From Lysobacterales bacterium (GTDB lineage: Bacteria; Pseudomonadota; Gammaproteobacteria; Xanthomonadales; SZUA-36): a stretch of DNA of 57,493 nt. The stretch spans positions 1 through 57,493 of the forward strand of contig JABDLD010000069.1 of NCBI GenBank assembly GCA_013001885.1, in the 5' to 3' direction. Both the position numbers and the translations under genes were made by a program. The notes under the pieces were generated by a model that worked only from the letters and a program-made list of their open reading frames with translations, was not told the DNA's origin and made no database searches. Below, in pieces: positions 382 to 16,481 of the stretch; the stretch's first letter is position 1, and each line of letters begins with the position of its first letter.

Positions 382-2058
382 TTATGCAAGCTCCGGAAGC
401 GCCCGGTCGATAATGGCCCGGCATTCTGCGCCGCGGGGAAGCGTGCCGTAGAGCGAGTGGTTCGAATCCCCAAGCCGGGAAGCACAAAAAGCCGTTGCGA
501 CCTCAACGGTTGAATACTGGATCAACAGCGCAGCCTGAAGCATGACAGCCATTGATCCCAGGACGGACCGGCTGCGGAACTCCAGCGTTTCAGGATTCGC
601 CATTTGGTTTTTTAACCGAATCACCGCATCGTCAAAAAAATCGTTGCTGCCCGATGCACGGTCCAGCTCGGCAAAATAGACATCAGCCACTTCAGGCTCT
701 TTTTGCAATGCTCTCAGCAGATCCAGGCACTGTACGTTTCCACTGCCCTCCCAGATGGCATTCACCGGGGACTCCCGGAACAGGCGGGGCATGATGCTGT
801 CTTCCATCACCCCGCTGCCTCCGATGCACTCCATGGCCTCAAAGGCGTGACCCGGCGTGCGTTTGCAGATCCAGTACTTGCCCAGCACTGTACCCAAACG
901 GACCAGGCGCCTTTCATGCGCAGACCCTTCCCGTTCGTCCAGCGCCCGGGCGATGCGCAGGGTTAGAGCTGTCGCCGCCTCGCTTTCCAGTGCCAGGTCG
1001 GCCAACACGTTCTGCATCAACGTCTGCTCGATTAACGGTTTTCCAAAAGCCGCGCGCTGGCGAGAGTGATGAATGGCCTGCACCACGGCTTGCCGCATCC
1101 CTCCCGATGAGCCAATCATGCAGTCGAAACGTGTCATTGAAACCATATCGATGATGGTCCGCACGCCGCGGCCTTCCTCGCCGACCATAACCGCATATGC
1201 ACCGCGCAATTCGACCTCGCTGGATGCGTTGGCGACATTGCCCATTTTGTTTTTGAGTTTCTGAATCTGCATCGCGTTCAGTGTGCCGTCCGGGCGCCAG
1301 CGCGGCATGAAGAAACAGGAAAGCCCCGCTTCGCTTTGCGCCAGCACCAGGAACGCGTCACACATCGGGGCAGAAACAAAGTACTTGTGCCCAACCAGCC
1401 GGTATTCCTGGCCGGGGCCGGGTTCACCAACGGGATAGGCTCGCGTCGAGTTACTGCGCACGTCGGAGCCGCCCTGTTTTTCAGTCATGGCCATGCCCAT
1501 GGTTATACTCGACTTGTCCGCAATCGGCACATTGCGCGGGTCGTATTCATAGGACAGGATCTTTTCCGCGTATTCGGCGTATACGTCAGCCTGGTGCCTG
1601 AGAGCCGGTATGACGGCCGAGGTCATGGTCACGGGGCAGCCGTGGGCGGCCTCGACCTGGGACATCAGGTAGAATTTCGCGGCCCTTGCAACCTGGGCGC
1701 CGGCCCGGGGTTCAGTCCAGTGTGATGCATGCAGGCCATTCCCGAGGGAATACCGCATGAGTTCGTGATAGGCCGGGTGAAACCGGACCTCGTTGACGCG
1801 ATGGCCGTTACGATCGTGCGTGTGGAGCGCAGGCCTGCTCTCATTCGCCTGGAATCCCAGTTCAATGATCTCGGCCCTGCCCGTCAAGCGGCCAAATTCC
1901 TGGAGCTCAGGCTCGGCCCAGGCCGCTCCTTCCCGCTCCAAGCCTTCCAGCAAAGCCGCGTCCAGCCGGTAAACATTGTGATTTTCAAGAGGAGTCGGCT
2001 GGTTTTCTACGCAGTGCGTTTCGGCAAGCCATTCGCTATCAGAATTTTTTAAGGACAT
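382..2058 (-). CDS. aidB: AidB-like acyl-CoA dehydrogenase
   Basis: A 558-residue acyl-CoA dehydrogenase of the AidB branch; E. coli AidB is about 541 residues. It matches AidB along its length, including MTEKQGGSDV (191-200, flavin/substrate loop), MTRFDC (308-313) and IWEGSGN (435-441), whose Glu437 aligns with the catalytic base. In E. coli, AidB is induced by alkylation, binds DNA and has weak isovaleryl-CoA dehydrogenase activity. The family name does not fix the role here. Its position after an acyl-CoA ligase and a wax ester synthase/DGAT suggests oxidation of an acyl-CoA made by this locus (inference). It starts 54 bp after the acyltransferase gene, with an AGG-type ribosome-binding site before the ATG. 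Confidence 0.85.
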   Translation of the reverse strand: MSLKNSDSEWLAETHCVENQPTPLENHNVYRLDAALLEGLEREGAAWAEPELQEFGRLTGRAEIIELGFQANESRPALHTHDRNGHRVNEVRFHPAYHELMRYSLGNGLHASHWTEPRAGAQVARAAKFYLMSQVEAAHGCPVTMTSAVIPALRHQADVYAEYAEKILSYEYDPRNVPIADKSSITMGMAMTEKQGGSDVRSNSTRAYPVGEPGPGQEYRLVGHKYFVSAPMCDAFLVLAQSEAGLSCFFMPRWRPDGTLNAMQIQKLKNKMGNVANASSEVELRGAYAVMVGEEGRGVRTIIDMVSMTRFDCMIGSSGGMRQAVVQAIHHSRQRAAFGKPLIEQTLMQNVLADLALESEAATALTLRIARALDEREGSAHERRLVRLGTVLGKYWICKRTPGHAFEAMECIGGSGVMEDSIMPRLFRESPVNAIWEGSGNVQCLDLLRALQKEPEVADVYFAELDRASGSNDFFDDAVIRLKNQMANPETLEFRSRSVLGSMAVMLQAALLIQYSTVEVATAFCASRLGDSNHSLYGTLPRGAECRAIIDRALPELA

Positions 2059-2112
2059 TTCAAACCTGCATCTTGCAAGGGGAGCGAGCGGTCGGCAGCT
2101 CGAAAAGCCCGT

Positions 2113-4536
2113 TCATCCCAGGACCGGGAACTTGCGTTTCCTGGCCAGGCGCGTCATTCCGGCCTGGATGACCGATTCAATTTCTGTGTAAACCTTGCCA
2201 ACATATTCGTTGTCGTTTTCCAGATCAGGATCAGCGCCGAGGTGGATTGGCTCAAGTATTTCAGTCCGGATTTTCGCCGGCAGCGGTACGTGCTGAAACG
2301 GCGTCAGATGCAGCGTCACTCCGAATGGAATACTCAGCGTAATAGGAGCGACATCGCTGCGCATCCGCTTTTTCAAACCCAGGGCCTTGGCCAGCCCGCG
2401 GCCTTCTGAAAGGACAAACAGGGTGTCGTGCCCGCCGATCGTTGCCACCGGCACGATGGGGACACCCTCTCGAATCGCCAGCCGGATGAACCCCGTTCTG
2501 CCTCCCAGCACGGCGATATCGCGCTTATCCCACGAGCGGTATGCATCCACCTCGCCGCCGGGCCAGAGAATCACGTCGTCGCCCTTGCGGAAGGCGGCTC
2601 CGATGTTTTCCCGGCTCGGTGAGATCGTTCCCATGCGCTTGAAGTAGCTGCCCAGTCCGGGGGCGCTCATGAGCACGTCATGCGCGGTGCCGTGCAGACT
2701 TCTTTGTTCGCCGAAATGCCGCCACCAAGCCAATGCAACAGTCCAGGCGTCCATGGTAAGCGGCCCGCCCGAGTGGACTCCAATCAGCAGCGACGGAACC
2801 TCGGGAAGGCTTTCCCAGCCCGCGAATTCCAGGCGAAAATAGTAATCCATCAACGCGTTCCAGAGCGGGGCTTGCGCGTTCATCAGCTCCGGGTCCGGCC
2901 CGTCGAGCCCTTCCTTTTTTGAACGGCCTTTCCCGCTTGCGCCTTTCTGGAGCGATTGAGCCGCCTGGTTCAGCCGGTCGAAGGATTTCTGGAGTTCTGA
3001 CCATGCTTTTTTGCTGAGGTTGCCACCCGAGGCGAGTTTGTTGAGTGCTTCTATTGGTATGGCGCCCAGGGACGCGACCAGCTGCCCGAAATCACCGGGG
3101 CGGGAAGGTTTCTTGCCCGCTTTCTTCTTTGCCGCGGAGGACGTTGTGCTTTTTGCCGCCGAACTGAAAGACCGCTCCAGCCGTTTAAGCTCAGTTTCCA
3201 GGCCATCGGCCAGGCGCTGCGGATCCGGCAGTGCGTTCGGGCAGGACAACAGGCCGAAATCCAGCCGGTCGTCGTGACTCGTCACCGTGATGTTGAGTGC
3301 CTGACCGTCGATCAGCATGGAAAGAGGATACTGTTCCACGAGCATCGCGCCGTTGATATAACGCGGCTCCCGGGGTCCAGGCACATTCGAAATTACCAGG
3401 TTGGCAGCGGGCGGTAATCGATCGGCTACTCCCAGCGTCTGGGTCAGGACAACCAGCCCGCTCAGCAGTTGCGTGTAATTGTCCGACGCCCGGGCTGAAT
3501 GCCCGCTGAGTTCCTTCTTTGCTGCAGAAACGGACGACTTGATCACTTCCAGTCGTTCGCCGGAATCACGGATGTCGGTACCCAGTGAACACATCATTAC
3601 CGTGACCCGGTTTCCGGTTTCATTTTCCTCGGCTGAACGCAGGGAAACCGGCACCCAGGCTGTCAGGGGCCTGGCGGGCAGGGATTGGTTTTCAGTCAGG
3701 TAGTCGCGAAGTGCGCCGGCGCTCATGGCCAGCACAATGTCGTTGACTGTTGCACCCGAATTTCGGCCCAGCTTCTTGATGCGGGGCAGTAAAAAACTGG
3801 CCACTCCCAGCTTACGATCGGCCGTGATCGCTCTGCCCAGCGGAGTTTTTGGCGCCATGAAGGGCGCCTTGGCCGAACTTTCCGCCAGGTTCAGTACTTT
3901 TAATCCTTCGCGGGCGAGCGTAGCGGATAATTCGGGTACCGTTCGGATTTGATCTACCAGGCCCGCTGACACTTTACCCAGGCGGCCCAGCAGCCCGGTT
4001 TCAATCACTGGCGCCTTGCGCTTCAGGACCGGTTGCCAAAATGCGCGGGATGACTGAGCTTCTGGCGATGCCGACAATGACCCTACCAGGTGCTCCATGG
4101 TTGCGACTCCATCCAGTAGCGCATGGTGTACCTTGAAATAAATGGCCACACGCCGGCCTTTTATACCTTCGATCAGGTAGCATTCCCACAAAGGTTTTGA
4201 GCGATCCAGCTGTTTTGAATGGATGCGCGACACCATCTTCAGCATTTGATCAGTGGTGCCCGGTGCAGGTAACGCAGCGAAGCGGACATGGTCTTCGATA
4301 TCAAAGCCAGGATCTTCTATCCAGGAAGGTAAATCCAATCCTCCGCCCAGCCTGTAGTTAAATGGCGGATGCGCGGTACCGGCGTCCCGCAAACCCTGCA
4401 TGAACTCGTTCCAGAAATTCCTGCGATAGTACTTAGGAAGTTTGAACACCCACAGCCCGGCCACATGCGCCAGCTTGCTGGGCGTTTCGGTTTGCAGAAA
4501 CGCCCAGTCCACCGCACTCAGCCGCTGTTTCGCCAT
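2113..4536 (-). CDS. Wax ester synthase/DGAT fused to a lysophospholipid acyltransferase-like domain
   Basis: An 807-residue, apparently two-enzyme protein. Residues 1-455 form a complete WS/DGAT unit: the catalytic motif HHALLDG is at 137-143, and NVPGPREP near 384-391 is typical of the C-terminal half. Such enzymes transfer the acyl group of acyl-CoA to fatty alcohols or diacylglycerol. Residues 456-550 are a Lys/Ser/Ala-rich linker. Residues 555-800 resemble the MGAT/DGAT-like lysophospholipid acyltransferases, with HSGGPLTMD at 588-596 as acceptor-site motif and WPGGE at 658-662. Stand-alone bacterial WS/DGATs are usually 450-500 residues, so the second half is extra. The start codon directly abuts the fadD stop, implying translational coupling with the enzyme that makes its acyl-CoA. 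Domain calls are firm; that both domains act on one lipid is inference. Confidence 0.9.
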   Translation of the reverse strand: MAKQRLSAVDWAFLQTETPSKLAHVAGLWVFKLPKYYRRNFWNEFMQGLRDAGTAHPPFNYRLGGGLDLPSWIEDPGFDIEDHVRFAALPAPGTTDQMLKMVSRIHSKQLDRSKPLWECYLIEGIKGRRVAIYFKVHHALLDGVATMEHLVGSLSASPEAQSSRAFWQPVLKRKAPVIETGLLGRLGKVSAGLVDQIRTVPELSATLAREGLKVLNLAESSAKAPFMAPKTPLGRAITADRKLGVASFLLPRIKKLGRNSGATVNDIVLAMSAGALRDYLTENQSLPARPLTAWVPVSLRSAEENETGNRVTVMMCSLGTDIRDSGERLEVIKSSVSAAKKELSGHSARASDNYTQLLSGLVVLTQTLGVADRLPPAANLVISNVPGPREPRYINGAMLVEQYPLSMLIDGQALNITVTSHDDRLDFGLLSCPNALPDPQRLADGLETELKRLERSFSSAAKSTTSSAAKKKAGKKPSRPGDFGQLVASLGAIPIEALNKLASGGNLSKKAWSELQKSFDRLNQAAQSLQKGASGKGRSKKEGLDGPDPELMNAQAPLWNALMDYYFRLEFAGWESLPEVPSLLIGVHSGGPLTMDAWTVALAWWRHFGEQRSLHGTAHDVLMSAPGLGSYFKRMGTISPSRENIGAAFRKGDDVILWPGGEVDAYRSWDKRDIAVLGGRTGFIRLAIREGVPIVPVATIGGHDTLFVLSEGRGLAKALGLKKRMRSDVAPITLSIPFGVTLHLTPFQHVPLPAKIRTEILEPIHLGADPDLENDNEYVGKVYTEIESVIQAGMTRLARKRKFPVLG

Positions 4537-6162
4537 TTACTTCAACTCACGCCTCAGAATTTTCCCTACCGCGGATTTCGGCAATTCATCGATGAAAACC
4601 ACCTGCTTGGGTACCTTGTAGCCGGCGAGGCTCTGACGTAGATATTTTCGGACGTCGTCTTCGGTGATTGAATCGTCCGATTTGACCACAAACAGTTTGA
4701 CCGCTTCTCCTGTGGCTTCATTCGGCACACCGACGCAGGCTGATTCGATCACGCCGGGCATGGCAGCGACCTCTTCTTCAATCTCGTTGGGAAAAACATT
4801 GAAGCCAGAAACCAGGATCATGTCTTTCTTGCGGTCGACGATGCGGAAGTAGCCTTCCTCGTCCATCACGGCGATATCACCTGTTTTGAAGTAACCGTCT
4901 TCGGTCATCACCTCGGCAGTGGCTTCAGGTTGCCGCCAGTAGCCTTTCATGACCTGGGGTCCTTTGGCACACAACTCGCCGGACTCGCCCTGTGCCACCT
5001 CGTTGCCGTCATCATCGCGCAAAGAGATATCGGTGGAAGGGACGGGAACTCCGATACCCTGCCTGTATTCGGATTCGGTCAGTTGGTTCACTGTCAGAAT
5101 GGGAGAAGTTTCAGACAAACCGTAGCCTTCCTTGATGTATCGCCCGGTCAGGTCTTTCCATTTTTGTGAAATCGCCTGCTGCACCGGTGCGCCGCCGCCC
5201 ATGGAAATCTTGAGTCCTGAAAAATCAATGTCGCTGAAACCAGGCGTGTGCAGCAAGCCGACATACAGCGTGTTTACGCCGGTGAAAATACTGGGCTTTG
5301 CCGCAGCCCAGATCTTGACGAAAGACTCCATGTCGCGCGGGTTCGTCACCAGCACGTTGGTGCCGCCCAGCTTGAAGAAGGTCAGCGTGTTCACCATCAA
5401 CGCAAAGATGTGATACATGGGAATTGCGGTCAGGACAACTTCGCTACCCCTGTCGATCATTCCGCAGGACACGGACTCGAACTGGGCGATATTGGCCAGC
5501 AGGTTACCATGAGTCAGCATGGCGCCTTTCGACAGCCCGGTGGTGCCACCAGTGTATTGCAGGAACAACAGATCATCCTGCGCCATCCCGGGCTCCTGTA
5601 ACTCGAGGTCAGCTCCTTTCGCAACTGCATCCGTGAAGGCGGTCGTGCCCGTCAGCCGGCCATCAGCCGGCGGGGAAGGAAGCCCTTTGTTGACCAGGTC
5701 ATCGAGACCGAACAAGATCACGTTTTTCACCGGCGTCCGGGCAATCACCTCGGCCAGTGTCGGCGTTGATCCCGCAAAAATGATAATGGTGTCGACATCA
5801 GCGTCCTTGAGCTGGTGCTGTAATTCTCTGGGAGAATAGAGCGGATTGACGTTAACCTGAACGCCGCCTGCCCGGATGATGCCGAACATTCCCACCGCAA
5901 AGACCAGCGTGTTCGGCGCCATCATTGCAACACGGTCGCCCTTTTTCAGGCCAAGCTCATTCTGCAGATACGCGGCGAAATCCCTGGACAGCCGGTCGAC
6001 ATCCGCAAAAGTCATGCCGGTGCCAAAACTGCTGAACGCGGTCTTGTCGCCAAATTCTTCGACCGCTTTGTGAAACATTTCCGCAACCGAATTCACGCCG
6101 GACGGACTGATCTCGTTCGGTATACCTGCTGAATAACTTTTTTGCCAGATGCGTTCCGCCAT
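4537..6162 (-). CDS. fadD: Long-chain fatty acid-CoA ligase
   Basis: A 541-residue AMP-forming acyl-CoA synthetase that activates free fatty acids to acyl-CoA. The ATP loop YTGGTTGLSKG is at 203-213, followed by PMYHIFAL, GYGLSETSP and the hinge/FACS segment around GDIAVMDEEGYFRIVDRKKD; the C-terminal lysine is in SAVGKILRRELK. The start is set at the ATG at 6162, because GGGAGG lies six bases before it. An in-frame ATG at 6180 would place this ribosome-binding site inside the coding region. It is the first gene of the fadD - WS/DGAT fusion - aidB unit, with no spacer before the acyltransferase gene. Length and motifs match FadD; chain-length preference cannot be read from sequence. Confidence 0.93.
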   Translation of the reverse strand: MAERIWQKSYSAGIPNEISPSGVNSVAEMFHKAVEEFGDKTAFSSFGTGMTFADVDRLSRDFAAYLQNELGLKKGDRVAMMAPNTLVFAVGMFGIIRAGGVQVNVNPLYSPRELQHQLKDADVDTIIIFAGSTPTLAEVIARTPVKNVILFGLDDLVNKGLPSPPADGRLTGTTAFTDAVAKGADLELQEPGMAQDDLLFLQYTGGTTGLSKGAMLTHGNLLANIAQFESVSCGMIDRGSEVVLTAIPMYHIFALMVNTLTFFKLGGTNVLVTNPRDMESFVKIWAAAKPSIFTGVNTLYVGLLHTPGFSDIDFSGLKISMGGGAPVQQAISQKWKDLTGRYIKEGYGLSETSPILTVNQLTESEYRQGIGVPVPSTDISLRDDDGNEVAQGESGELCAKGPQVMKGYWRQPEATAEVMTEDGYFKTGDIAVMDEEGYFRIVDRKKDMILVSGFNVFPNEIEEEVAAMPGVIESACVGVPNEATGEAVKLFVVKSDDSITEDDVRKYLRQSLAGYKVPKQVVFIDELPKSAVGKILRRELK

Positions 6163-6204
6163 GAATTTCCTCCCATTCATGAAGTTAAAAGTAAGGGCCG
6201 TTCA

Positions 6205-6247: not shown

Positions 6248-6277
6248 AAAGCCGATGGCCGCACGGCCATCGGCTTT
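6248..6277 (-). terminator. Rho-independent terminator of the DUF1302-RND unit
   Basis: A perfect 13-bp stem (6248-6260 with 6265-6277) closes a four-base loop. On the minus strand it is followed by a run of seven T, a classical intrinsic terminator. It sits 24 bp after the RND gene stop and separates that unit from the fadD unit. Confidence 0.93.
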
Positions 6278-6301: not shown

Positions 6302-8743
6302 TCAGTGCACGGCTTCGCCGGACTCCAATTTCAGACGGCCCTCTTCCACCTCGTGCATCTGGTACTTCTTGGTCGGAATCAACAACCGTACCAGCGCCGG
6401 CAACAGGATCAGAGCGCCAAACATGTTCATGACGAACATGAATGTGAGCATCAGCCCCATGTCACCCTGGAACTTGATCGGCGACCAAAGCCAGGTGGCC
6501 ACGCCAATCGCAAGGGTGAGGCCGGTGAACGAAACCGCTTTGCCGGTGGTTTTCAGGGTTTCGAAATAGGCGTCATGCAACTTGAGTCCCTTGTAGAGAT
6601 AGGTCTCCAGCTTGCTGAAAATGTAGATGCCGTAGTCCACGCCGATACCGACGCCCAGCGCGATAACCGGCAGGGTAGCCACCTTCACGCCAATGCCCAG
6701 GAAGGTCATCAGGGCCTGTCCCAGAACCGAGGTCAGGGCCAGCGGCAGAACGATACAGAAGACCGCACGCGCGGACCGGAACGCCAGCAGGACCAGGAAC
6801 GACACGACGCCGTAGACCCAGGCCAGCATCTTGTACTGCGCTTTGCTGACCACATCGTTGGTTGCCGCCTCGATACCGGAGTTTCCCGCCGCCATGACGA
6901 AACGAACATTCCCGGTGTCATATTCCTGTTTGAATTTCTCGATAGCGGCGGTCACCGCCAGCAGGGTTTCCGCTTTGTGGTCCTTGAGGAAAATCATCAC
7001 CGGAACCAGGTTGCAATCCGCGTTCATCAAACCCGGAGGCATGGCCTTGCCGCTGACTGACCCGTTCAACACCCACTGGTTGCGCGTGATGGTGGCCCAC
7101 TTGGGGCTGCCCTCGTTATTGCCGGCAATGGCGCGTTTGGATGCATCAATCAGCGAAACCGCAGACTGCACGCCCGGGACATCGCTCATCACCCACTCGA
7201 ACAGATCCACCGCGGCATAGGTCTCATAAGTGACACACTGCATGTCTTCGGTCTGCACCATGACGACGAACACGTCCGTGCTGGCCGTATAATTTTCCAC
7301 GATGAACTTGTTGTCGAGGTTATAGCGCGAATCCGCGCGAAGTTCCGGCGCGCCGGCATCGAGATCACCGATTTTCAGATCCTTGCCGTACCACAGCCCA
7401 AAGGCGAATGCCGCAATCGCGAGCACAACCAGTGTTCTGGCGACCTTTGGATAGGTATAGATGGTCGAAAACTCGCACAGACGGTGGTAGATGCCGCTGT
7501 TCTCGAATTTTTTCATCCGGCGGATTGCCGTGACGCCCACGCCAAGGTAAGACATCAGCACCGGCAAGAGAATAAGGTTGGTCAGGATAACAACGAGCAC
7601 ACCGACACTGGCGGCAATGGCCAGGTCGTGGATCACCTGGATCTGGATCACCATGAGCGTCGCAAAACCGATGCCGTCGGAAACCAGCGCGGTCAGGCCC
7701 GGAACATAGAGCGTGCGGAATGCATAACGAGCCGACTCTTCGTTATCCCGGCCCTCGGACCGCCCGTGCATGATGGCATTGATCATCTGCACGCCGTGGC
7801 TGACGCCGATCGCAAAAACGAGGAAAGGGATCAGCATGGAGTAGGGGTCGAGTCCGTAACCGAGCACATTCAACAGGCCGACCTGCCAGGCCACTGCAAT
7901 CACCGAGCACAGGACGACTACGATCGAACTGCGGATACAGCGTGAGTAGATATAGAACAGGAGCAACGTGATGCCCAGTGCCAACAGGAAGAAAAACGCG
8001 ACTTGACCGGCCCCGTCAATCAAGTCTCCCATGACCTTGGCAAAGCCCGTCATGTGAATCTTGATGCGGTCAGTTTGATACTTGTCCCGCACCAGTTGTT
8101 CCAGCTTCTTCGAAATTTCCCCGAAGTTGAGCGCCTCGCCGGTTTCAGGATTGGTCTCCATCAATGGGGCCAGGATGATGGTTGAACGGAAATCATTGGC
8201 AACCAGGTCGCCGACCTGGCCGGACTTCATCACGTTGGCGCGAACCTGCTGCAGGCTGGCTTCCGAGCCGTCGTACTCGTCGGGCACGACCGTGCCGCCG
8301 GTGAAGCCTTCCTCGGTGACCTCACCCCATCGAACGTTCGGGGTCCACAGGGACTTGACTCCGGAGCGCGCCACACCGGGAATGAAGAACACTTCGTCGC
8401 TGATCTGTCGCAGCGTTTCCATGTACTCTTCGGTAAAGATGTCACCCTCTGTCGTCTCCACGGAAATGCGCACGGCATTACCGAGACCGGTCAACTCATC
8501 CTTTCGCTCCAGGTAGGCGGCGATGTACGGATGTTTGATAGGAACCATTTTCTCAAAGCTGGCATCGGGCCTGACCTTGATGGCAGCTGAGACCAGGTAT
8601 ACGGTCGCCAGCAGAAAAATCAGCAGAACCCAGAGCCTCTTGCCGAAAATGAATCGTTCTACGATCGACTCGGCTTCCAGGAACGCATGCTCTACTTCGT
8701 CAACAGCACCTTTAACGGCGTCTTTAATTTCGTGTTCGCTCAT
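6302..8743 (-). CDS. RND/MMPL-type transporter (COG1033-like exporter family)
   Basis: An 813-residue inner-membrane protein with the internal duplication of RND proteins. There is one transmembrane helix at 36-55, a large periplasmic loop to about 245, then helices at roughly 248-266, 270-290, 300-322, 347-366 and 374-400; the second half repeats this pattern. TM4 of the second half carries GVGIGVDYGIYIF, the Asp-containing proton-relay motif, while the equivalent first-half segment reads FAIGVSHGVQM without the Asp. This is the hopanoid/lipid-transporter-like branch rather than the AcrB multidrug branch. The start is placed at the ATG at 8743, ten bases after the upstream stop and preceded by GAGG; an upstream in-frame start at 8797 would overlap the previous gene. 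The neighbours suggest a hydrophobic substrate; direction of transport is unknown. Confidence 0.88.
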   Translation of the reverse strand: MSEHEIKDAVKGAVDEVEHAFLEAESIVERFIFGKRLWVLLIFLLATVYLVSAAIKVRPDASFEKMVPIKHPYIAAYLERKDELTGLGNAVRISVETTEGDIFTEEYMETLRQISDEVFFIPGVARSGVKSLWTPNVRWGEVTEEGFTGGTVVPDEYDGSEASLQQVRANVMKSGQVGDLVANDFRSTIILAPLMETNPETGEALNFGEISKKLEQLVRDKYQTDRIKIHMTGFAKVMGDLIDGAGQVAFFFLLALGITLLLFYIYSRCIRSSIVVVLCSVIAVAWQVGLLNVLGYGLDPYSMLIPFLVFAIGVSHGVQMINAIMHGRSEGRDNEESARYAFRTLYVPGLTALVSDGIGFATLMVIQIQVIHDLAIAASVGVLVVILTNLILLPVLMSYLGVGVTAIRRMKKFENSGIYHRLCEFSTIYTYPKVARTLVVLAIAAFAFGLWYGKDLKIGDLDAGAPELRADSRYNLDNKFIVENYTASTDVFVVMVQTEDMQCVTYETYAAVDLFEWVMSDVPGVQSAVSLIDASKRAIAGNNEGSPKWATITRNQWVLNGSVSGKAMPPGLMNADCNLVPVMIFLKDHKAETLLAVTAAIEKFKQEYDTGNVRFVMAAGNSGIEAATNDVVSKAQYKMLAWVYGVVSFLVLLAFRSARAVFCIVLPLALTSVLGQALMTFLGIGVKVATLPVIALGVGIGVDYGIYIFSKLETYLYKGLKLHDAYFETLKTTGKAVSFTGLTLAIGVATWLWSPIKFQGDMGLMLTFMFVMNMFGALILLPALVRLLIPTKKYQMHEVEEGRLKLESGEAVH

Positions 8744-8753
8744 CGCACCCGCC

Positions 8754-9944
8754 TCATTGCTTTGTGGAAGGGGATGCCACAGGCATTCCCGTTGCATCGG
8801 TTATCCTGAGCCCGCCCAGCCCGGCGAGCAGAACATTTCCGTCGGATTTCTGGACCAGGCCCGAAACGGTCCGGCGGTCACGATTTTTCGATGGCATGAA
8901 TTGCTGCTGTCCAGGTGCCCGTGTCATGATGACGCCGCCCTGCCCCGCCAGGAACACCGTTCCGTCGCGCAGCAGTATCCCGTTCATCAGTGTCACCGAT
9001 GTGCCTGAATCCAGCGACTCCCAGGTCTCCCCCCGGTCAACTGACCGGAACAGATTGCCGCGCAATCCGAAAGCCAGCAATTCATATCTATCCGACCCGT
9101 CCGGAACCACGACGATGCCGTAAAAAGAGCCTTCGTAACCCGGTTCAAGGCTGTCCCAACTCATCCCACCGTCACTGGACCGATAAATGTAGCCGGCTTC
9201 TCCCGCGATATAGAGGGTCCCATCAGGCGCCTGGGTAATTTGGTTCAGGTGAAATGCCTGGGCGTTGTCCATTCGGTCGGATACCAGGCTCCAGGTCCCG
9301 CCGCCGTCAACGGTGTGCAGCAACATGCCGTAAGAACCGACAACAAATCCTTCCTGCGCGTTGCGAAACCAGACGTCCAGCAACGGCCGAACCGGTCCTG
9401 CGGAGGTGTCGTCCATCGCGCCTTCCAGCATGAACTCTGCTTCTTCCAGCATGAACTCGGCGTCAGCCAGTTCGTCCTCGTCTGGCTCATCCTGTGATTG
9501 GAAGGCTTCCACTTCCTGACTAGCCTGTTCCACGATACGCTCGGCTACGGCTACGATCTGCTCATTGAGCTGATAGCCGTCAAGCTGCTTTTGCCAGGTT
9601 TTGCCGCCGTCGCCGGTGTGCAAAATCAATCCGTCGTGACCGACGGCCCAACCGGAATCAGGCGTTGGAAAATCGACTCCGGTCAACATCACCGATGAAG
9701 GCACAGCGGCCTGGGTCCAGGTCGCACCGCCGTCATCACTGACGATGATAACGCCGTGGGCACCAACCACCGCCAGGGCGTTGTCATCACGGCTGGAGAT
9801 ATCCAGCAGCAGCGTCTGGGTAGCGGCACCGCTTTGAACAGCCGGCATCTCCAGCAAATCAACCGCAAATGCCGGAGAAATGAATCCCGTGACCGCAATT
9901 GCCGTGAGCAAGAGCAGTCGCCTAAGGTAAATCGATTTTGTCAT
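8754..9944 (-). CDS. Secreted YCF48/BNR-repeat beta-propeller protein
   Basis: A 396-residue protein with a signal peptide (residues 1-27, cleavage after PAFA). At least five repeats carry the Asp-box pattern S/T-x-DGG-x-T/S-W (for example SDDGGATW, TGDGGKTW, TVDGGGTW, SSDGGMSW), the hallmark of BNR/YCF48 (HCF136-like) propellers. An acidic, helix-prone insertion (about 125-185) interrupts the propeller and holds a tandem heptad, DAEFMLE then EAEFMLE. Proteins of this type recur beside DUF1302, DUF1329 and RND genes and are presumed periplasmic or surface partners of the transporter; no enzymatic role is established. The start ATG follows DUF1329 by about 100 bp that hold a hairpin. Confidence 0.85.
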   Translation of the reverse strand: MTKSIYLRRLLLLTAIAVTGFISPAFAVDLLEMPAVQSGAATQTLLLDISSRDDNALAVVGAHGVIIVSDDGGATWTQAAVPSSVMLTGVDFPTPDSGWAVGHDGLILHTGDGGKTWQKQLDGYQLNEQIVAVAERIVEQASQEVEAFQSQDEPDEDELADAEFMLEEAEFMLEGAMDDTSAGPVRPLLDVWFRNAQEGFVVGSYGMLLHTVDGGGTWSLVSDRMDNAQAFHLNQITQAPDGTLYIAGEAGYIYRSSDGGMSWDSLEPGYEGSFYGIVVVPDGSDRYELLAFGLRGNLFRSVDRGETWESLDSGTSVTLMNGILLRDGTVFLAGQGGVIMTRAPGQQQFMPSKNRDRRTVSGLVQKSDGNVLLAGLGGLRITDATGMPVASPSTKQ

Positions 9945-10000: not shown

Positions 10001-10035
10001 ATGCCAGAGGCCGGTGCATTACCGACCCCTGGCAT
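10001..10035. other. Intergenic hairpin between DUF1329 and propeller genes
   Basis: A 15-base arm (10001-10015) pairs with 10021-10035 around a five-base loop, with two non-Watson-Crick positions. No T-run follows on the minus strand, so it is not a standard terminator. It could protect the upstream DUF1302-DUF1329 mRNA or attenuate the downstream genes. Confidence 0.6.
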
Positions 10036-10046: not shown

Positions 10047-11414
10047 TTAGCGTTTGCCGAGGCGTCTGAGTGCGCTCGTGTCGTAATCATCCCGCGACAT
10101 TTTCAGACCGAAAATGTACGGTTCTTTTTCCTCGTTGGTCAAGCCGAGAGTCAGGTAGCGCCCGTCGTTCAGGTCCATCAGCGTCTCGTTGGTAATCCAG
10201 GGAACATTGATGGTGTAATACTGGATGGCATGCGCTTCACCGATACGCCACAACTGCCCCTGGCCGTCATACTGGTCTTTCACCATGATCTGCCAGGAAT
10301 CTTCGTCGATGTAAAAGACGCGTTTGGCGTAGATATGCCTGGAACCTTCTTTCAGGGTCGCTTCGACTTCCCATACCCGGTGCAGCTCATAACGCGCGTA
10401 GTCCTGGTTCATGTGGCCCTTGTTATGCAACTGTTTGTAGGTCACGTCCGGTGAGTGCATCTTGTAGCTGTTGTAAGGAACGTACATTTCCTTCTTGCCC
10501 ACCAACTTCCAGTTGTAGCGGTCCGGAGCGCCGTTGAACATGTCGAAATCATCCGCTGTACGCGTTCCATCCGAACCCTGGCCGGGGCCGTCATAGGCAA
10601 CCTGCGGGGCGCGGCGCACACGGCGCTGACCGGCGTTGTACAGCCAGGCCCGGCGGGTGTCAGAAACCTGATCAACCGTCTCGTGCACCAACAGCACGGT
10701 GCCCGTCAACTGCGGTGGCGAGTGAATCGCGTAGGTGAAATAGATCAGCACATTACGGTCTTTCACCGGATCCTTGCCGCCTTCCAGGAAGTCAGGCCAC
10801 GTGAACGTATCGGTGATCTGTACCGGCACGTAAGCGCCGTTCCCCTGCACCGGCACCTGTACGTAGGTGCGTTGTGCCGACCCGCCCCGATAACGCGTCA
10901 GGTGGTTCCACAGCACCTCGTAAGCATTCTGCGGAATCGGGAATGCATGCGCCACTTCGAAGTTTACGGCGCCGTTACCGTCGTTGATCAGCTCGGCTTT
11001 GGCCCCGTTCTCCCGAATTTTGGCATAAACATCATCCGACATCGCGACTACACGATGGCTTGGGTAGACGTTCATCTTGTACGTATCGGGATATTTTTTG
11101 AACAGGGCAACCTGCCCCGGCGAAAGATTCGCTGCGTACTGATCAACATTGGCGGCCGTGATCGTGAACAGGATCGGGTCGCTTGGGAAAGGATCCGCCA
11201 GGTGCGGCGTACCCGTGTAGTTGGCAGGCGGCTCGGTCAATCCTCCGGTCCAGGCAGGGATCGTGCCCGCTTCATTGCCGGCCCTCACTGAACCCATCGG
11301 GGTCAGGTCGTTATCCAGGCGCGCCAGTTCCGATTCCGGAACCTTGGCGACCGCGGCGGTCACGCTCAGCGCCAGCGCTGCGCAGACCGCAGCTTTCATA
11401 TAAATGTGTTTCAT
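10047..11414 (-). CDS. DUF1329 family periplasmic protein
   Basis: A 455-residue protein with an N-terminal signal peptide (cleavage near AAVA, residue 23). The mature start KVPESELARLDNDLTPMGS and the segments AGTIPAWTGG and PYVPYNSY-like are typical of DUF1329 (outer-membrane lipoprotein-sorting-like) proteins. Members are thought to adopt a LolA/LolB-like open barrel that could carry a hydrophobic ligand through the periplasm; direct biochemistry is scarce. The start ATG at 11414 has AAGGAG nine bases upstream. It lies 30 bp after the DUF1302 gene, and the pair is almost always adjacent in other genomes. I infer a periplasmic shuttle between the DUF1302 barrel and the RND pump. Confidence 0.9.
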   Translation of the reverse strand: MKHIYMKAAVCAALALSVTAAVAKVPESELARLDNDLTPMGSVRAGNEAGTIPAWTGGLTEPPANYTGTPHLADPFPSDPILFTITAANVDQYAANLSPGQVALFKKYPDTYKMNVYPSHRVVAMSDDVYAKIRENGAKAELINDGNGAVNFEVAHAFPIPQNAYEVLWNHLTRYRGGSAQRTYVQVPVQGNGAYVPVQITDTFTWPDFLEGGKDPVKDRNVLIYFTYAIHSPPQLTGTVLLVHETVDQVSDTRRAWLYNAGQRRVRRAPQVAYDGPGQGSDGTRTADDFDMFNGAPDRYNWKLVGKKEMYVPYNSYKMHSPDVTYKQLHNKGHMNQDYARYELHRVWEVEATLKEGSRHIYAKRVFYIDEDSWQIMVKDQYDGQGQLWRIGEAHAIQYYTINVPWITNETLMDLNDGRYLTLGLTNEEKEPYIFGLKMSRDDYDTSALRRLGKR

Positions 11415-11444: not shown

Positions 11445-13268
11445 TCAGAAATCCATCGACACGGTGAATGAGAAGAAATCCCGATCGCTCTGGGTGTTGG
11501 CGACGCCGCCTGAGAACCAGGTATACGCGATACTGCCGCGATACTTGGTCAGGTAATTGGCGCCCAACGCCACGCTGAACGCCTTGCGTCCGTCCTGAAA
11601 TGACGGGGTTGGTGATGTGCCTTTCACATCATGCGCCCAGGCAATGCTCGGGGTCAGCTCGACACCGGCAAAGACGTTGGGATAATTGGCCGAGGCGCGG
11701 AACCGGTAACCCCAGGAATTGGAGGTGACGAAGCCGTCGTCATTGACGCCGCCCAGGTTGACCGGCGGTCCGAAAGACGGGTTACGTCCATAGGGCATGA
11801 CGCTGATATCCGGAAGATCGCTGACTCCGATCCAGGCTACTTCACCGACCAGGGACACGCGCTGCGCGCCCAGACCCTGCTCCCAGAAGTAGATGGCCGT
11901 CGCCTGCGCCTGGGTCACGTCAAATCGGTCCCAGCCCTGTGCGAGGCCATCACCCGTCGTTGCAAAGCTGAAAAACGCCTGGCATGCACGTGCGCCAAAC
12001 TGGCCGTAACTCGCGTACTCGACCGGTGTGCCACAAGCGGCGCCCTGCGAGGCCAGCACCCCTAGCCCGCCCAGTAGCTCCGTCGTTCCGTTAACGCCAA
12101 CCGGTAAATCCTTTTTATAACTGACTTCACCGGAAAGGGCCACGGTTCCCACGTTGGTCGCGAAGCTGACACCGTAAATATCGATGTCTTCCGGGTATTC
12201 AACCTGGTAGTAACTGGGGAAAGGACCGCCGCCAAGACCGTTGAGAAATATTGATCCGTCAAGGGCGGCCTGTAAGTTGTAACGCACATTCAGGACCGGA
12301 GTGCGATTGTGCAACCGCTGATAGTAAAGGCCGAATTCCGTGTCGATTGCATCAACGTAGTTGCGAACTGCGACACCAAACTGGCCGCTGTCACTGGCCT
12401 CGTTCACGAACGGGTCCTTTCTGACGTTGTTGATGTTCTGCAGCACGAATTCGGGCACCCCGATGTCTGGAGCCAGCAACTGGTTACAACCGGACGCCGC
12501 GAAGTCCACATCCGAGAAGTAAGTACCGCATCCGTCAATCACGGTTTCTTCCCACTGGAACTGGTAGAAAGCCTCGAGGCTCCAGCCACCACCCAGACCC
12601 AGGTTACCGTAGATAAGCGCAACCGGGAGCAGGCCTTCCTTGATCTCCGCTCCGGGTCGCCGGAACGCAGAAACATCGATAGGGTTCAACACGTTTACAC
12701 CCTGGATAAAGGTCGCTTCACCCCAGTTCACAACCTGTCGCCCTACCCGGACATCCAGCGGCATATTACCCAGATCGAAACTTCCATAGACAAACAGGTC
12801 GAGCAGACGGAGGCCTGAAAACCGAGCCCACTTATCGAAATCCGCGTCATCCAGCGTTTCGCCGACGACATAATTGTTGGGTGAGTGGCCATGCGGCCTG
12901 TCGCCCTTCATCAATTCAAAATCATACCAGTACTTGATGCGGGCGAATCCGCCGAACTGGCCATTGCTGATCTCGAACTCGGAAGTTCCCTTGATGATGT
13001 TCGAGAAAATATCGCCTTTCTCGAAGTTCAGGTTACCGTCATCCGTCAGGATAGCCGGGGCCGTTCCGCCGTTGCCTATTCCGATCAATGCGGGGTCGGG
13101 ATCTTCTCCTCGCCAGGAAATGCCGTAGCTGATCGTATTGTCCCAGCTTCCTGACCAGTCACCCCAGTCAAACTGAACGGCATGCGCCGGTGACGACAGC
13201 GCCAGTGCTGCTGCAATGGCGAGCGGGCAACCGCGCAGACTTATCTTTGTGCCTTGCCTTTTTCTCAT
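11445..13268 (-). CDS. DUF1302 family outer-membrane beta-barrel protein
   Basis: A 607-residue protein with a signal peptide (cleavage after SPAHA, about residue 31). The mature N-terminus VQFDWGDWSGSWDNTISYGISWR is characteristic of DUF1302, and the many alternating aromatic strands and the final strand ending SFTVSMDF indicate an outer-membrane barrel. The start is set at the ATG at 13268, because GGAGAG lies eight bases before it; an upstream in-frame start at 13289 would leave an unusual charged N-terminus. It is first in the four-gene envelope unit. A PsrA-like palindrome lies 18 bp upstream of the start, in the presumed leader. DUF1302 proteins are associated with uptake or export of hydrophobic compounds; the substrate is unknown. 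Confidence 0.9.
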   Translation of the reverse strand: MRKRQGTKISLRGCPLAIAAALALSSPAHAVQFDWGDWSGSWDNTISYGISWRGEDPDPALIGIGNGGTAPAILTDDGNLNFEKGDIFSNIIKGTSEFEISNGQFGGFARIKYWYDFELMKGDRPHGHSPNNYVVGETLDDADFDKWARFSGLRLLDLFVYGSFDLGNMPLDVRVGRQVVNWGEATFIQGVNVLNPIDVSAFRRPGAEIKEGLLPVALIYGNLGLGGGWSLEAFYQFQWEETVIDGCGTYFSDVDFAASGCNQLLAPDIGVPEFVLQNINNVRKDPFVNEASDSGQFGVAVRNYVDAIDTEFGLYYQRLHNRTPVLNVRYNLQAALDGSIFLNGLGGGPFPSYYQVEYPEDIDIYGVSFATNVGTVALSGEVSYKKDLPVGVNGTTELLGGLGVLASQGAACGTPVEYASYGQFGARACQAFFSFATTGDGLAQGWDRFDVTQAQATAIYFWEQGLGAQRVSLVGEVAWIGVSDLPDISVMPYGRNPSFGPPVNLGGVNDDGFVTSNSWGYRFRASANYPNVFAGVELTPSIAWAHDVKGTSPTPSFQDGRKAFSVALGANYLTKYRGSIAYTWFSGGVANTQSDRDFFSFTVSMDF

Positions 13269-13286
13269 AGTGGTCTCTCCTACAGA

Positions 13287-13299
13287 CAAACCTTGTTTG
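13287..13299. promoter_or_regulatory. PsrA-like operator (CAAAC-N3-GTTTG)
   Basis: The sequence CAAACCTTGTTTG is a perfect palindrome, extending one base further on each side (13286-13300). It fits the G/C-AAAC-N(2-4)-GTTT-G/C consensus of PsrA, the TetR-family fatty-acid-responsive regulator of Pseudomonas. It lies between the candidate DUF1302 promoter and the start codon, a good place for a repressor. No psrA gene is in this window. Confidence 0.55.
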
Positions 13300-13339: not shown

Positions 13340-13469
13340 GTAGCTTTTTCTGATTCTGGCAGGCCGACGCCACTCTTAATGACATAAATCAGATTGTTTC
13401 CTTCTCCGGATAACAGTCGTTGGAGGAAATATCAGCAGCAGTTTATTTGTTTTGTGTTAGCATTTTTTC

Positions 13470-14858
13470 ATGAGAAAACTCTCGGCACTGGACCTCGCGT
13501 TCTTCGTAGCGGAATCAGAAGGCAGCCCGAAACACGTTGCAGGTTTGATGCTGTGCAAGAAGCCAAAGGGAAGTCCCGCCAACTTCGGCCGGAAACTGAT
13601 CGAAGAACTCAAAACCCACCAGCAACTCACGGAACCCTTTAACCTGGTCATTCGTTTCTCCGGCCTCAAGGGACCGCGTTGGGAACTCTGCCAGGATTTC
13701 GATATCGATGAACATGTTTTCTACCACCGGTCCAAAAAAAAAGTCAGCTGGCTGCAAGCCAAGGAACAGGTCGCCCGGCTGCACGAGCCGTTGATGGACC
13801 GTTCAAAACCGCTGTGGGAATACCACCTGATCGACAATATCGAAGGCGCACGATTCGCCATTTATACGAAGGTTCATCATGCCTATGCTGACGGCATGAC
13901 CATGTCCCGTTGGCTCGACCGGTGCCTCAGCACCTCGCCGGACGACATGCGGGTGCAGCCGGCCTGGACCCTGCCGGCGCAGGAGAAGAAAACGACCAGG
14001 CAAAAGCCGTCCCTGTTGGCCGGAGGTTTGCGCAAACTGAACAGCCAGGCCTGGAGTCAACTGGTCACCACGGGCGGAATTGCCAAACTGGCGGCGCAAC
14101 AATACCTGGAGCGTTTGGGAATAACACATGATGCCGTTACGCTGGCGTTCAATGCCAGCGATGAAACCGCCCTGACCGGCAGTTCATCCGCCGGCCGCGG
14201 AATCGCGACGACGTGGATTGCCATGGAGCAGGTCAAGCGGGTCTGCAAGTTGACACGGTCGACACTGAACCACGTGGCGCTAAGCTGTATTGACGGCGCC
14301 CTGCATCGCTATCTGGATGAAATCGGCAGCCCTGTTGACCACCCCATCACCATCCAGATGCCGGTCAACCTGCGCTCCTCATATGACAATGAAGGCGCCG
14401 GAAACAAGCTGGGCGTTGCGCTGGTGCAGCTGGCTGAACCGACCGACGATCCGTACAAGCGGCACAACGAGGTAGGCCATTCGCTGCACCAGGTAAAACA
14501 GCACATCGAAAGTGTGCGCGGTGATTCGATGGAACAGTTCACCGTTTTGACCGCGCTAACCGGAGAGCTGATCGAAAAACTCCATTTAAGCAATCGCCTG
14601 CCGGCCAACGGCCACACCCTCGTTTCCAACCTGCCCGGCCCCCCGGATACGCGTTACCTTAAAGGCGCCCGGGTGGAACAAATGTATCCCTTCAGCCTGT
14701 TGGTGCCAGGCCTGCGAACGAACATCACATTATTCAGTTGCGGCGGAATCCTCAATATCGGCATCGTCGCGACCAAAGATCTCGAAAACCTCGACCAGTT
14801 GGCCCGGTTTATCAGGGAAGAGTTCGATTTTCTGGAGTCTGCTGTCCTCAACCCCTAA
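13470..14858 (+). CDS. Wax ester synthase/diacylglycerol acyltransferase (stand-alone paralogue)
   Basis: A 462-residue WS/DGAT, the usual length for the family. The N-terminus MRKLSALDLAFFVAES matches the family start, the catalytic HHAYADG is at 136-142 and NLPGPPDTRY near the C-terminus is the second conserved block. It should esterify acyl-CoA to a long-chain alcohol or diacylglycerol. It is divergent from the DUF1302 unit and is followed after 15 bp by a GMC oxidoreductase. The ATG at 13470 is the most upstream possible start, since an in-frame TAG lies four codons before it, but no good ribosome-binding site precedes it. A GGAGG near 13422 is about 40 bases too far away. It is a paralogue of the first half of the fusion at 2113-4536, and the divergence suggests different acceptors. 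Confidence 0.9.
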   Translation: MRKLSALDLAFFVAESEGSPKHVAGLMLCKKPKGSPANFGRKLIEELKTHQQLTEPFNLVIRFSGLKGPRWELCQDFDIDEHVFYHRSKKKVSWLQAKEQVARLHEPLMDRSKPLWEYHLIDNIEGARFAIYTKVHHAYADGMTMSRWLDRCLSTSPDDMRVQPAWTLPAQEKKTTRQKPSLLAGGLRKLNSQAWSQLVTTGGIAKLAAQQYLERLGITHDAVTLAFNASDETALTGSSSAGRGIATTWIAMEQVKRVCKLTRSTLNHVALSCIDGALHRYLDEIGSPVDHPITIQMPVNLRSSYDNEGAGNKLGVALVQLAEPTDDPYKRHNEVGHSLHQVKQHIESVRGDSMEQFTVLTALTGELIEKLHLSNRLPANGHTLVSNLPGPPDTRYLKGARVEQMYPFSLLVPGLRTNITLFSCGGILNIGIVATKDLENLDQLARFIREEFDFLESAVLNP

Positions 14859-14873
14859 AGCGGGTACTTTACG

Positions 14874-16481
14874 ATGCAAGATGAACATTTTGATTACATC
14901 ATCGTCGGCGGTGGCTCCGCCGGATGCGTACTGGCGAACAGACTGTCCGCTGAAGGCAATAACAAGGTCTGCCTGCTGGAAGCCGGGCCGGAAGACAAAA
15001 CGCTGTTCATTACGATTCCGGGAGCTTTCGCCTACTTCATGTTCACCAAAAAGTACAACTGGAGCTTCGACTCGGAGCCGGTTGGCGATATCAGAAAAGG
15101 TGAGCCGGTCTTTTGCCCGCAAGGAAAAGGCCTGGGAGGCGGTAGCGCCATCAATGCGATGATTTACATCCGCGGACATCGCGTCGATTACGATCACTGG
15201 GCGTCACTGGGTAACGAAGGCTGGGGATGGGAGGACCTGTTACCGTACTTCAAAAAGAACGAATGCAATGAGCGCGGCGGTGACGAGCTTCACGGCGATT
15301 CCGGACCACTTTATGTCTCCAATTGCCGTAACTACTACCCGATCAATGAGCGCTTTCTGCAGGCCGCCTCGGAGAGCGGATTTCCGTTGAACAACGACTT
15401 CAACGGCCCGGAGCAGGAAGGCGCGGGGCTCTACCAGTTCACGATCCGCGACGGCAAGAGATGCAGCGCTTCGCATGCCTATCTCAGGCCGGTGAGAACC
15501 CGCACGAACCTCTCGGTAGAGTGCCATGCGTTGGCCTCGAGGATTCTGTTAGAGGGCAATAAAGCCACGGGTGTCGAATACCGTCAAAAAGGCGAGATCC
15601 GGCGCATTTATGCAGATAAGGAAGTGATCGTCAGCGCTGGTGCCTACAACTCGCCGAAACTGCTGATGCTCTCGGGAATCGGTGGCGAGGATGCGCTGAC
15701 CTCTGCCGGAATCACTCCGTTTCATGTATTGCCGGGCGTGGGCGAAAACCTGCAGGAACACGTCGATTCCTGTGTCTTGCAGGAAAGCAGAAAATCGGAC
15801 GGGTTCCGGACATCCCTGGGCGGGCTGCTTAAAATGTGGCGGGAGCCCTTCCGTTACCTGTTCGGCAGGAAAGGTAAGCTCGAATCATCCATTACCCAGG
15901 CCGGCGCTTTCCTGAAAACGGCGCCGGACCTGCCGGCGCCGGATATCCAGCTGCACTTCCTGCCGCTGCTTTACGACGACAGCGGCCGCAACCTGAAACT
16001 GATGGCGCAAAGCGGCTATTCGTGCCATGTCTGCGTGCTGCGGCCGAAGAGCCGGGGACGCATGACATTGAGATCTGCGGACCCGGCGGAGCCGCCGCGC
16101 ATCGAGCTGAATTTCTTTGACCATCCGGACGACCGGAAAACCATGGCCAACGGAATCCGCGTCGCACGCAAGATTCTTTCGGCATCGAGTTTTGATGACT
16201 ATCGCGGCGCCGAAATGAACCCCGGGCCGGACGCGCAAAGCGACGATGAGATCCTGGCCCGCTGCAAGGAAAAGCTGGGGTTGGTCTATCACCCTGTGGG
16301 CACCTGCAAAATGGGCAACGACGAAATGGCCGTGGTGGACTCATCACTGCGGGTGCATGGGCTGGATGCTTTGCGCGTGGTCGATGCGTCGATCATGCCC
16401 ACCCTGATCGGCGGCAACACCAACGCACCTACAATGGTGATCGCCGAGAAAGCCGCTGACCTGATCCTCAAAGGTAAATAG
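14874..16481 (+). CDS. GMC family FAD-dependent alcohol oxidoreductase
   Basis: A 535-residue flavoprotein. The N-terminal FAD-binding fold carries IIVGGGSAGCVLANRLS (glycines 12, 14 and 17) followed by CLLEAG. The C-terminal VYHPVGTCKMG supplies the active-site His473, and IGGNTNAPTM supplies the partner Asn517. Family members include choline dehydrogenase and the alkanol dehydrogenase AlkJ; they oxidise primary alcohols to aldehydes. Coupling to a wax ester synthase gene 15 bp upstream suggests a long-chain alcohol substrate, for instance one released from or destined for wax esters (inference). No signal peptide or membrane helix is evident. Confidence 0.9.
   Translation: MQDEHFDYIIVGGGSAGCVLANRLSAEGNNKVCLLEAGPEDKTLFITIPGAFAYFMFTKKYNWSFDSEPVGDIRKGEPVFCPQGKGLGGGSAINAMIYIRGHRVDYDHWASLGNEGWGWEDLLPYFKKNECNERGGDELHGDSGPLYVSNCRNYYPINERFLQAASESGFPLNNDFNGPEQEGAGLYQFTIRDGKRCSASHAYLRPVRTRTNLSVECHALASRILLEGNKATGVEYRQKGEIRRIYADKEVIVSAGAYNSPKLLMLSGIGGEDALTSAGITPFHVLPGVGENLQEHVDSCVLQESRKSDGFRTSLGGLLKMWREPFRYLFGRKGKLESSITQAGAFLKTAPDLPAPDIQLHFLPLLYDDSGRNLKLMAQSGYSCHVCVLRPKSRGRMTLRSADPAEPPRIELNFFDHPDDRKTMANGIRVARKILSASSFDDYRGAEMNPGPDAQSDDEILARCKEKLGLVYHPVGTCKMGNDEMAVVDSSLRVHGLDALRVVDASIMPTLIGGNTNAPTMVIAEKAADLILKGK

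Follow-up and report, generated by a model that had tools for sequence, protein, structure and literature searches.

To our knowledge, the passage of very hydrophobic molecules across the Gram-negative envelope is poorly resolved, the substrates of FadL excepted. A conduit of DUF1302, DUF1329, YCF48 and RND proteins has been found in connection with monoterpenes, aromatics and detergents. Here we describe one such conduit in the window, the 57,493-nucleotide contig C67 (JABDLD010000069.1, positions 1-57493) of a 3.3-Mb Lysobacterales genome split over 96 contigs, where it adjoins an island of predicted genes for acyl activation, neutral-lipid synthesis and alcohol oxidation, and we report that FadD and GMC genes recur beside one clade of this conduit beyond the close relatives of this genome.

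The conduit itself is already described. AmeABCD lies in a monoterpene island of Castellaniella defragrans 65Phen, where its deletion lowered monoterpene tolerance and raised the net influx of Nile Red, which was read as efflux; the same source describes HpnN as moving hopanoids from the inner membrane to the periplasm (PMC6394551). In Pseudomonas putida, PP_0765, PP_0766, PP_2018 and PP_2019 are reported to be essential on Tween 20 and have been modelled as a transport complex (PMC10866462), and betaproteobacterial relatives found in aromatic-catabolic regulons were read as possible solvent-stress genes (PMC6449761). The DUF1302/DUF1329 genes of the Delftia Cs1-4 'nanopod' (PMC3110197) and the DUF1329, YCF48, MMPL and porin-like genes of the ORM2 benzene cluster (PMC13101534) are likewise tied to hydrophobic substrates. 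The slf operon of Psychrobacter plasmid pP62BP1 is proposed to turn alkyl sulfates into acyl-CoA by a secreted alkyl sulfatase, a GMC enzyme, an aldehyde dehydrogenase (ALDH) and an acyl-CoA ligase, and its authors draw alcohol transport as an unassigned step (PMC3346939).

The initial annotation had named nine genes in the island of the window, and all nine were recovered at the same coordinates and confirmed by Pfam, with the named domains scoring above the gathering cut-offs. A tenth, which it had overlooked, is the start of a sulfatase gene truncated at the contig end. The features of the island are as follows, where WS/DGAT denotes wax ester synthase/diacylglycerol acyltransferase.

2-331, minus strand: sulfatase, N-terminal 110 aa (PF00884, 4.9e-11), with a signal-like N-terminus and the formylglycine-type motif CTAGR....TG
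382-2058, minus strand: AidB-like acyl-CoA dehydrogenase (AidB_N, 3.3e-59)
2113-4536, minus strand: WS/DGAT fused to an LPLAT/DAGAT-type (DAGAT/PlsC-type) acyltransferase (WS_DGAT_cat, 6.2e-64; WS_DGAT_C; DAGAT, 1.5e-8)
4537-6180, minus strand: FadD-like long-chain acyl-CoA ligase (AMP-binding, 1.4e-88)
about 6251-6274, minus strand: predicted intrinsic terminator stem in the RND/fadD gap (13-pair hairpin plus U run, -26 kcal/mol, z -5.15)
6302-8797, minus strand: RND/MMPL inner-membrane transporter, AmeD-like (MMPL, 1e-28; Patched sterol-sensing domain)
8754-9944, minus strand: secreted YCF48-type propeller, AmeC-like (PSII_BNR, 2.3e-30), with a signal-like N-terminus
10001-10035, minus strand: 15-pair hairpin without U run in the DUF1329/YCF48 gap (z -5.46)
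10047-11414, minus strand: DUF1329 periplasmic LolA-like protein, AmeB-like (PF07044, 6.9e-150)
11445-13289, minus strand: DUF1302 outer-membrane barrel, AmeA-like, with an OprD/Occ-like predicted fold (PF06980, 4.3e-171)
13470-14858, plus strand: second WS/DGAT, divergent (WS_DGAT_cat, 2.4e-45; HHAYADG)
14874-16481, plus strand: GMC oxidoreductase of the alcohol dehydrogenase/oxidase type (GMC_oxred_N/C)

The conduit matches AmeABCD in its DUF1302, DUF1329, YCF48/COG4447 and RND genes and in the order A-B-C-D, with products of 614/455/396/831 aa in the window and 605/451/316/787 aa in AmeABCD, a likeness of gene types, order and lengths and not of directly aligned sequences; whereas ameABCD sits among monoterpene genes, the window conduit adjoins FadD, WS/DGAT, GMC and sulfatase genes (PMC6394551). 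The P. putida genes encode the same DUF1302, DUF1329, periplasmic protein and transporter, but by their numbers they lie at two loci, and the available text mentions no WS/DGAT (PMC10866462). For Delftia and ORM2 the substrates are aromatic hydrocarbons, and no acyl-CoA or wax genes are mentioned alongside in the parts available (PMC3110197, PMC13101534). The slf operon shares with the window a sulfatase, a GMC dehydrogenase, a fatty-acyl-CoA ligase and the same proposed chemistry, and differs in its metallo-beta-lactamase (MBL) type alkyl sulfatase, its ALDH and AraC genes and the lack of a transporter (PMC3346939); the window instead has a PF00884 sulfatase, WS/DGATs and the conduit, with neither ALDH nor AraC. 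The initial annotation had called the direct joining of conduit and synthesis genes its least described aspect, a fair description, as our searches of an open-access library listed no paper that, by its title and the opening of its abstract, deals with this conduit joined to WS/DGAT. The parts are known, but their combination, together with a possible connection to the breakdown of sulfate esters, is sufficiently new to deserve a test.

We read this locus, with a probability of roughly 45%, as a two-unit island for the use of hydrophobic long-chain substrates, in which the conduit serves alcohols, esters or sulfate esters and the WS/DGATs store the product. Across 276 genomes of the class, we fetched 60 DUF1329 places, part of those found, together with flanks of at most 10 kb. 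All four conduit genes were present at 34, a FadD of at least 38% identity at two (L095 and L107) and a WS/DGAT at one (L117). In L107, which belongs to a family other than that of the window, fadD directly follows the RND gene; in L117, from a third family, the gene directly after RND is a WS/DGAT with the motif HHATIDG. The L117 operon runs on (14030-17144), so that WS/DGAT, 3-hydroxy-3-methylglutaryl-CoA (HMG-CoA) reductase and DUF2505 genes lie 3' of RND, a possible terpenoid link.

Using loci L031-L149, we built a DUF1329 tree of 109 rows and counted neighbors within 10 kb of DUF1329; L051, L053, L054 and L089 were dropped as same-contig duplicates, and the counts leave out DUF1329 matches below 33% identity or of at most 250 aligned query residues and loci without DUF1329 on the contig. 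The window fell in a five-row set (SH-like approximate likelihood ratio test, SH-aLRT, 100) of what we call type-I cassettes, whose DUF1302 is 62-85% identical to that of the window. This set is nested in a 22-row clade (SH-aLRT 93) with alteromonad and L117 groups, a 27-row set received 99, and L095 and L107 lie outside the 22-row clade. Over these related tree rows, several of them loci on short contigs, FadD (at least 38% identity) was found at 11/22 loci in the clade versus 2/87 outside, or 11/17 versus 2/71 when only loci of at least 14 kb were considered. GMC (40%) was present at 6/22, WS/DGAT and ALDH (35%) at 5/22 each, alkyl sulfatase at 4/22 (three alteromonad genera and one metagenome-assembled genome, MAG) and lipoxygenase at 3/22, each against 0/87 outside, whereas a Lipase_bact_N-type lipase stood at none of the 22 clade loci and at 19/87 outside. 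As thresholds and clade were chosen with the data already seen, Fisher values for these contrasts are descriptive, and the numbers of parsimony changes on the tree (FadD 8, GMC 5, WS/DGAT 3, lipase 6) indicate that the associations do not all trace to a single ancestral event.

These counts bear on the claim of the initial annotation that the parts form a single pathway. Acyl activation and alcohol oxidation are tied to the conduit clade beyond close relatives, and conduit-fadD and conduit-WS/DGAT neighborhoods do occur in other families, but the full combination is confined to close relatives and a predicted terminator separates the two units. The window, G009 and probably G003 (on two contigs) are the only places where we saw conduit, fadD and fused WS/DGAT together, so by the criterion of the initial annotation itself the full claim rests on close relatives.

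Within the clade, the alteromonads Ningiella ruwaisensis (L062) and Pseudoalteromonas prydzensis DSM 14232 (L068) carry GMC-fadD-ALDH-RND-YCF48, then AraC, then DUF1302-DUF1329-secreted alkyl sulfatase; Paraglaciecola (L067) has the same gene set in another order, with the RND pair on the opposite side of the sulfatase. The MAG locus L069 holds alkyl sulfatase, GMC, fadD and AraC with DUF1302/DUF1329, and no RND or ALDH gene in its stretch. L062, L067 and L068 carry the five slf gene types plus the conduit, a likeness by family only (PMC3346939), and pP62BP1 was absent among the matches listed in plasmid searches with the ALDH and DUF1302 proteins. From its gene families, the window island looks like a variant of these slf-like clusters with another sulfatase class, GMC, FadD and WS/DGATs, which favors a long-chain alcohol or ester conduit for catabolism and storage. 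In marine Gammaproteobacteria (L055, L059, L060), a lipoxygenase gene and fadD both stand no more than 10 kb from DUF1302/DUF1329, a hint that polyunsaturated fatty acids are used.

The family search covered 39 genomes, that of the window among them, and gave a DUF1302 match in 29. Besides the window, type-I cassettes occur in G009, G001, G003 and G022 and, from the collection scan, in L052 and L086, and the public names of the carriers are Lysobacterales, Xanthomonadales, Oceanospirillales, Chromatiales and unplaced gammaproteobacterial MAGs. A WS/DGAT divergent from DUF1302 is kept in five of these seven loci (window, G001, G003, G022 and L086; not G009 or L052), which argues that the arrangement is not due to chance. 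GMC is visible in five (window, G001, G003, G009 and L086), and the G022 contig ends before that position. In G009 the conduit is followed by fadD, the fused acyltransferase gene and the sulfatase gene, and in G003 the fused gene and the sulfatase lie on a separate short contig. G022 has a sulfatase, 78% identical to that of G009, about 30 kb from the conduit on the same contig, with an AidB-like dehydrogenase, an AraC regulator, two GMC genes and an ALDH as neighbors; elsewhere in G022 (L153:2629-5870), a further WS/DGAT and a further sulfatase are divergently encoded. In L052 (1996-9747), genes for an acyl-CoA ligase, an acyl-CoA dehydrogenase, a DUF1214/DUF1254 protein and a DUF1295/PEMT protein lie 5' of the type-I DUF1302, in place of WS/DGAT and GMC.

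The borders of the island are also conserved. To the right lie pnp-rpsO-truB-infB-nusA, then rimP and nuo genes. An 86% identical pnp adjoins GMC in L086, and a glutamate dehydrogenase gene lies beyond the sulfatase in L034 (the G009 locus) and L048, indicating that the island was inherited in place, as a block. Farther along the window, 40694-57488 holds ordinary housekeeping genes for triosephosphate isomerase, two PmbA/TldD proteins, YhdP, RNase E/G, Maf, a SPOUT methyltransferase, DNA polymerase III delta and leucyl-tRNA synthetase.

To characterize the conduit proteins, we used structure models and fold searches, which place an outer-membrane barrel and a LolA-like periplasmic protein in the island, as for an AmeABCD-type conduit. 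The DUF1302 model (predicted local distance difference test, pLDDT, 84.1; built from a 40-row alignment) found its best fold kin in the OprD/Occ channels (OccK2, Z 23.3, 3.3 A over 311 residues), whose fold is that of uptake channels. The DUF1302 profile had no match up to E 1 among PDB sequences, and FadL-type barrels were absent among the 50 matches listed for the fold searches, an absence that excludes nothing. The DUF1329 model (pLDDT 88.8; 37-row alignment) had as its top PDB matches LolA3, the solved DUF1329 structure 4z48 and 3bk5, and LolA-superfamily proteins were among its matches. The RND protein has 12 hydrophobic segments; its best NCBIfam match, TIGR00921 (HAE3), reached 140 bits, below the cut-off of 352, and its kin in the PDB were mainly MmpL3/4/5, Patched and HpnN, all weak.

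The enzymes of the island are assigned with differing closeness to characterized families. The 4537-6180 product is FadD-like by sequence, as its best NCBIfam model, PRK08974 FadD, gave 690 bits, short of the equivalog cut-off of 884; the AidB-like dehydrogenase scored 541.2 bits against 545 for NF008594. Both WS/DGATs keep HHxxxDG and WS_DGAT_cat. The fused protein passes TIGR02946 (435 bits) and carries HHALLDG in its WS/DGAT part and HSGGPLTMD in the partner acyltransferase domain, while the second copy falls slightly short (307.3 against 309.95); the whole genome has seven WS/DGAT matches. The fusion is present in G009 and, partially, in G003. As no other match in the 276 class genomes, with at most three candidates per genome scored at a cut of E 1e-50, reached its C-terminal domain, the fusion looks local. 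In the PDB, the best match of GMC was choline dehydrogenase 9lq0, followed by a chloramphenicol-inactivating oxidoreductase and, after it, by alcohol oxidases. The 31.6 kb surrounding a Photobacterium GMC of 58% identity contained no conduit gene.

The sulfatase gene lies 50 bp downstream of the dehydrogenase gene on the same strand. The formylglycine sulfatase motif rule is C-x-(P/A)-x-R, and CTAGR fits it; the FGE-sulfatase domain (PF03781) exceeded its cut-off four times in the genome, on three contigs, and two of these matches are neighboring pieces on C78. In L034 and L048, full-length homologues stand directly 3' of the gene for the fused acyltransferase, with no AidB-like dehydrogenase gene between. 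We considered this sulfatase as an exclusive partner of the conduit and rejected the idea, since the family is widespread and its neighbors varied. Alkyl sulfatase as a general conduit partner was unsupported: a distant DUF1302 stood within about 4 kb at one of nine further alkyl sulfatase loci, and the other genes at none. Two alkyl-sulfatase-like matches in G236, 3-5 kb from DUF1329 genes, were left uncounted because repeated transposase genes interrupt the single stretch that we inspected.

The initial annotation had divided the minus-strand genes into two units, a division supported by the 121-bp gap between RND and fadD. On the coding strand this gap contains a 13-pair hairpin with a U run, which, judged from sequence, is a strong intrinsic terminator, so that the best reading is of two separate transcripts, one for the conduit and one for the fadD-acyltransferase-dehydrogenase-sulfatase genes. 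This hairpin was absent from the output of a consensus terminator scan. G009 also has a strong hairpin in the RND-fadD gap, but without a U run. Within the units, fadD abuts the fused gene (4537 versus 4536), and the YCF48 gene overlaps the start of the RND gene. The hairpin at 10001-10035 could perhaps uncouple expression of the DUF1302/DUF1329 pair from that of YCF48/RND, genes that lie apart from each other in some relatives. A promoter scan was uninformative (five sigma-70-like sites, 7.4 expected).

In the mechanism that we infer, including its substrate, inward direction, every reaction and the joint action of both units, an AmeABCD-type conduit would handle a long-chain alcohol, its ester or its sulfate ester across the envelope by means of an OprD-like DUF1302 barrel, a LolA-like DUF1329 shuttle, a YCF48 assembly protein and an RND motor. 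A secreted sulfatase would release the alcohol, the GMC enzyme would oxidize it to the aldehyde, and an ALDH encoded elsewhere would yield the acid. FadD would convert the acid to acyl-CoA, from which the AidB-like dehydrogenase may begin beta-oxidation, and the two WS/DGATs may join acyl-CoA to alcohol or diacylglycerol, trapping it in the form of wax ester or triacylglycerol. The nearest ALDH kin in the genome, on C95, is 41% identical to the alteromonad ALDH; about 4 kb separate it from a sulfatase that shares 57-58% identity with the G009 enzyme.

Several observations weigh against this reading. No FadD was found within 10 kb at 6 of the 17 clade loci of at least 14 kb, and the 22-row clade was delimited after inspection of the tree, with many loci picked by similarity to the query. 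Among type-I loci, G009 lacks the second WS/DGAT, G022 has conduit and WS/DGAT with no fadD within the 15.8 kb seen, and the L052 contig ends inside DUF1329, before any genes that might follow; the restriction of the full set to close relatives and the terminator between the units also count against the reading. The window sulfatase (PF00884) is of another class than SlfS (MBL type, PF14863); the PF14863 gene of the genome is on C7, and similarity to the alteromonad proteins revealed no ALDH or AraC gene in the window. Of 369 class genomes, 17 had the family of the window sulfatase at a threshold of E 1e-90. Conduit genes stood beside 0/18 further loci of its homologues, two of them from the genome of the window and several on short contigs, and ALDH beside one; FadD, GMC and ALDH were absent from all nine further alkyl sulfatase loci, two of them short.

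The reduced tolerance of the Castellaniella deletion mutant also counts against uptake, and it underlies an alternative that we regard as possible if doubtful, in which the conduit expels toxic alcohols, aldehydes or fatty acids and the neighboring enzymes detoxify or store the remainder. The four gene types and the gene order shared with ameABCD, with its Nile Red phenotype, the weak similarity of the RND protein to the hopanoid carrier HpnN (PMC6394551) and the possible solvent-stress role of the betaproteobacterial relatives (PMC6449761) favor such efflux, whereas the P. putida homologues are reported to be essential for Tween 20 metabolism (PMC10866462). Efflux also fits poorly with clade partners that are catabolic enzymes and secreted hydrolases. 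The Occ/OprD-like model of the DUF1302 barrel, an uptake-channel fold, points the same way. Conduit and acyltransferase/FadD genes might instead be unrelated neighbors, inherited vertically between pnp and the glutamate dehydrogenase gene with no joint action, as the terminator, the full set in close relatives only and the block inheritance seen in L086, L034 and L048 would suggest. We consider this unlikely, as FadD, GMC and WS/DGAT recur by the conduit clade in other taxa and G022 retains conduit and WS/DGAT with different genes downstream.

A conduit that carries a neutral or terpenoid lipid made by the cell itself outward to the outer membrane, with WS/DGAT making the cargo, would have parallels in HpnN and in the aryl-polyene systems and would suit a LolA-like DUF1329, an RND protein with a Patched domain and the L117 operon with its HMG-CoA reductase and DUF2505 genes. 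The island, however, has no gene for lipid-backbone biosynthesis and the partners across the clade are mainly degradative, which makes such export improbable. We hold least of all to choline-sulfate use through the sulfatase and a choline dehydrogenase, a pathway rejected on family cut-offs. The GMC protein passes the broad PRK02106 model (624 versus 605 bits), and its top PDB match is a choline dehydrogenase, but it misses the betA equivalog TIGR01810 (541 versus 732 bits), the G009 sulfatase reaches 85 bits where choline-sulfatase TIGR03417 requires 433, and no ALDH is adjacent.

The genome of the window carries a second conduit, on C41, whose DUF1302 is 35% identical to that of the window; judged by similar identity, conduits of this type occur in about 24 of the 39 family genomes. 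A Lipase_bact_N-type secreted lipase stands beside DUF1302 in 11 of 12 second-type loci (L036-L047; three of the lipases were Pfam-checked), the exception being C41, which is cut by the contig end, and neither FadD nor WS/DGAT was found at any of the 12 in the stretches fetched. We take these lipases to be VolA-type.

Returning to the use of long-chain substrates as the preferred reading, we tentatively extend it, in a form we consider rather doubtful, to the conduit family. The conduit subfamily of the window may be the envelope step for alcohols released from alkyl sulfates or esters, feeding wax synthases, with sister conduits paired with the VolA-type lipases and each conduit matched to its own secreted hydrolase. 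As the tree divides alcohol oxidation, acyl activation and sulfatases on one side from secreted lipases on the other, this leads to a testable rule, that the neighboring secreted hydrolase predicts the cargo of the conduit. If this were true, scavenged alcohols would become storage wax, and the conduit would be a candidate, in named marine species, for the transport step that the slf pathway leaves unassigned.

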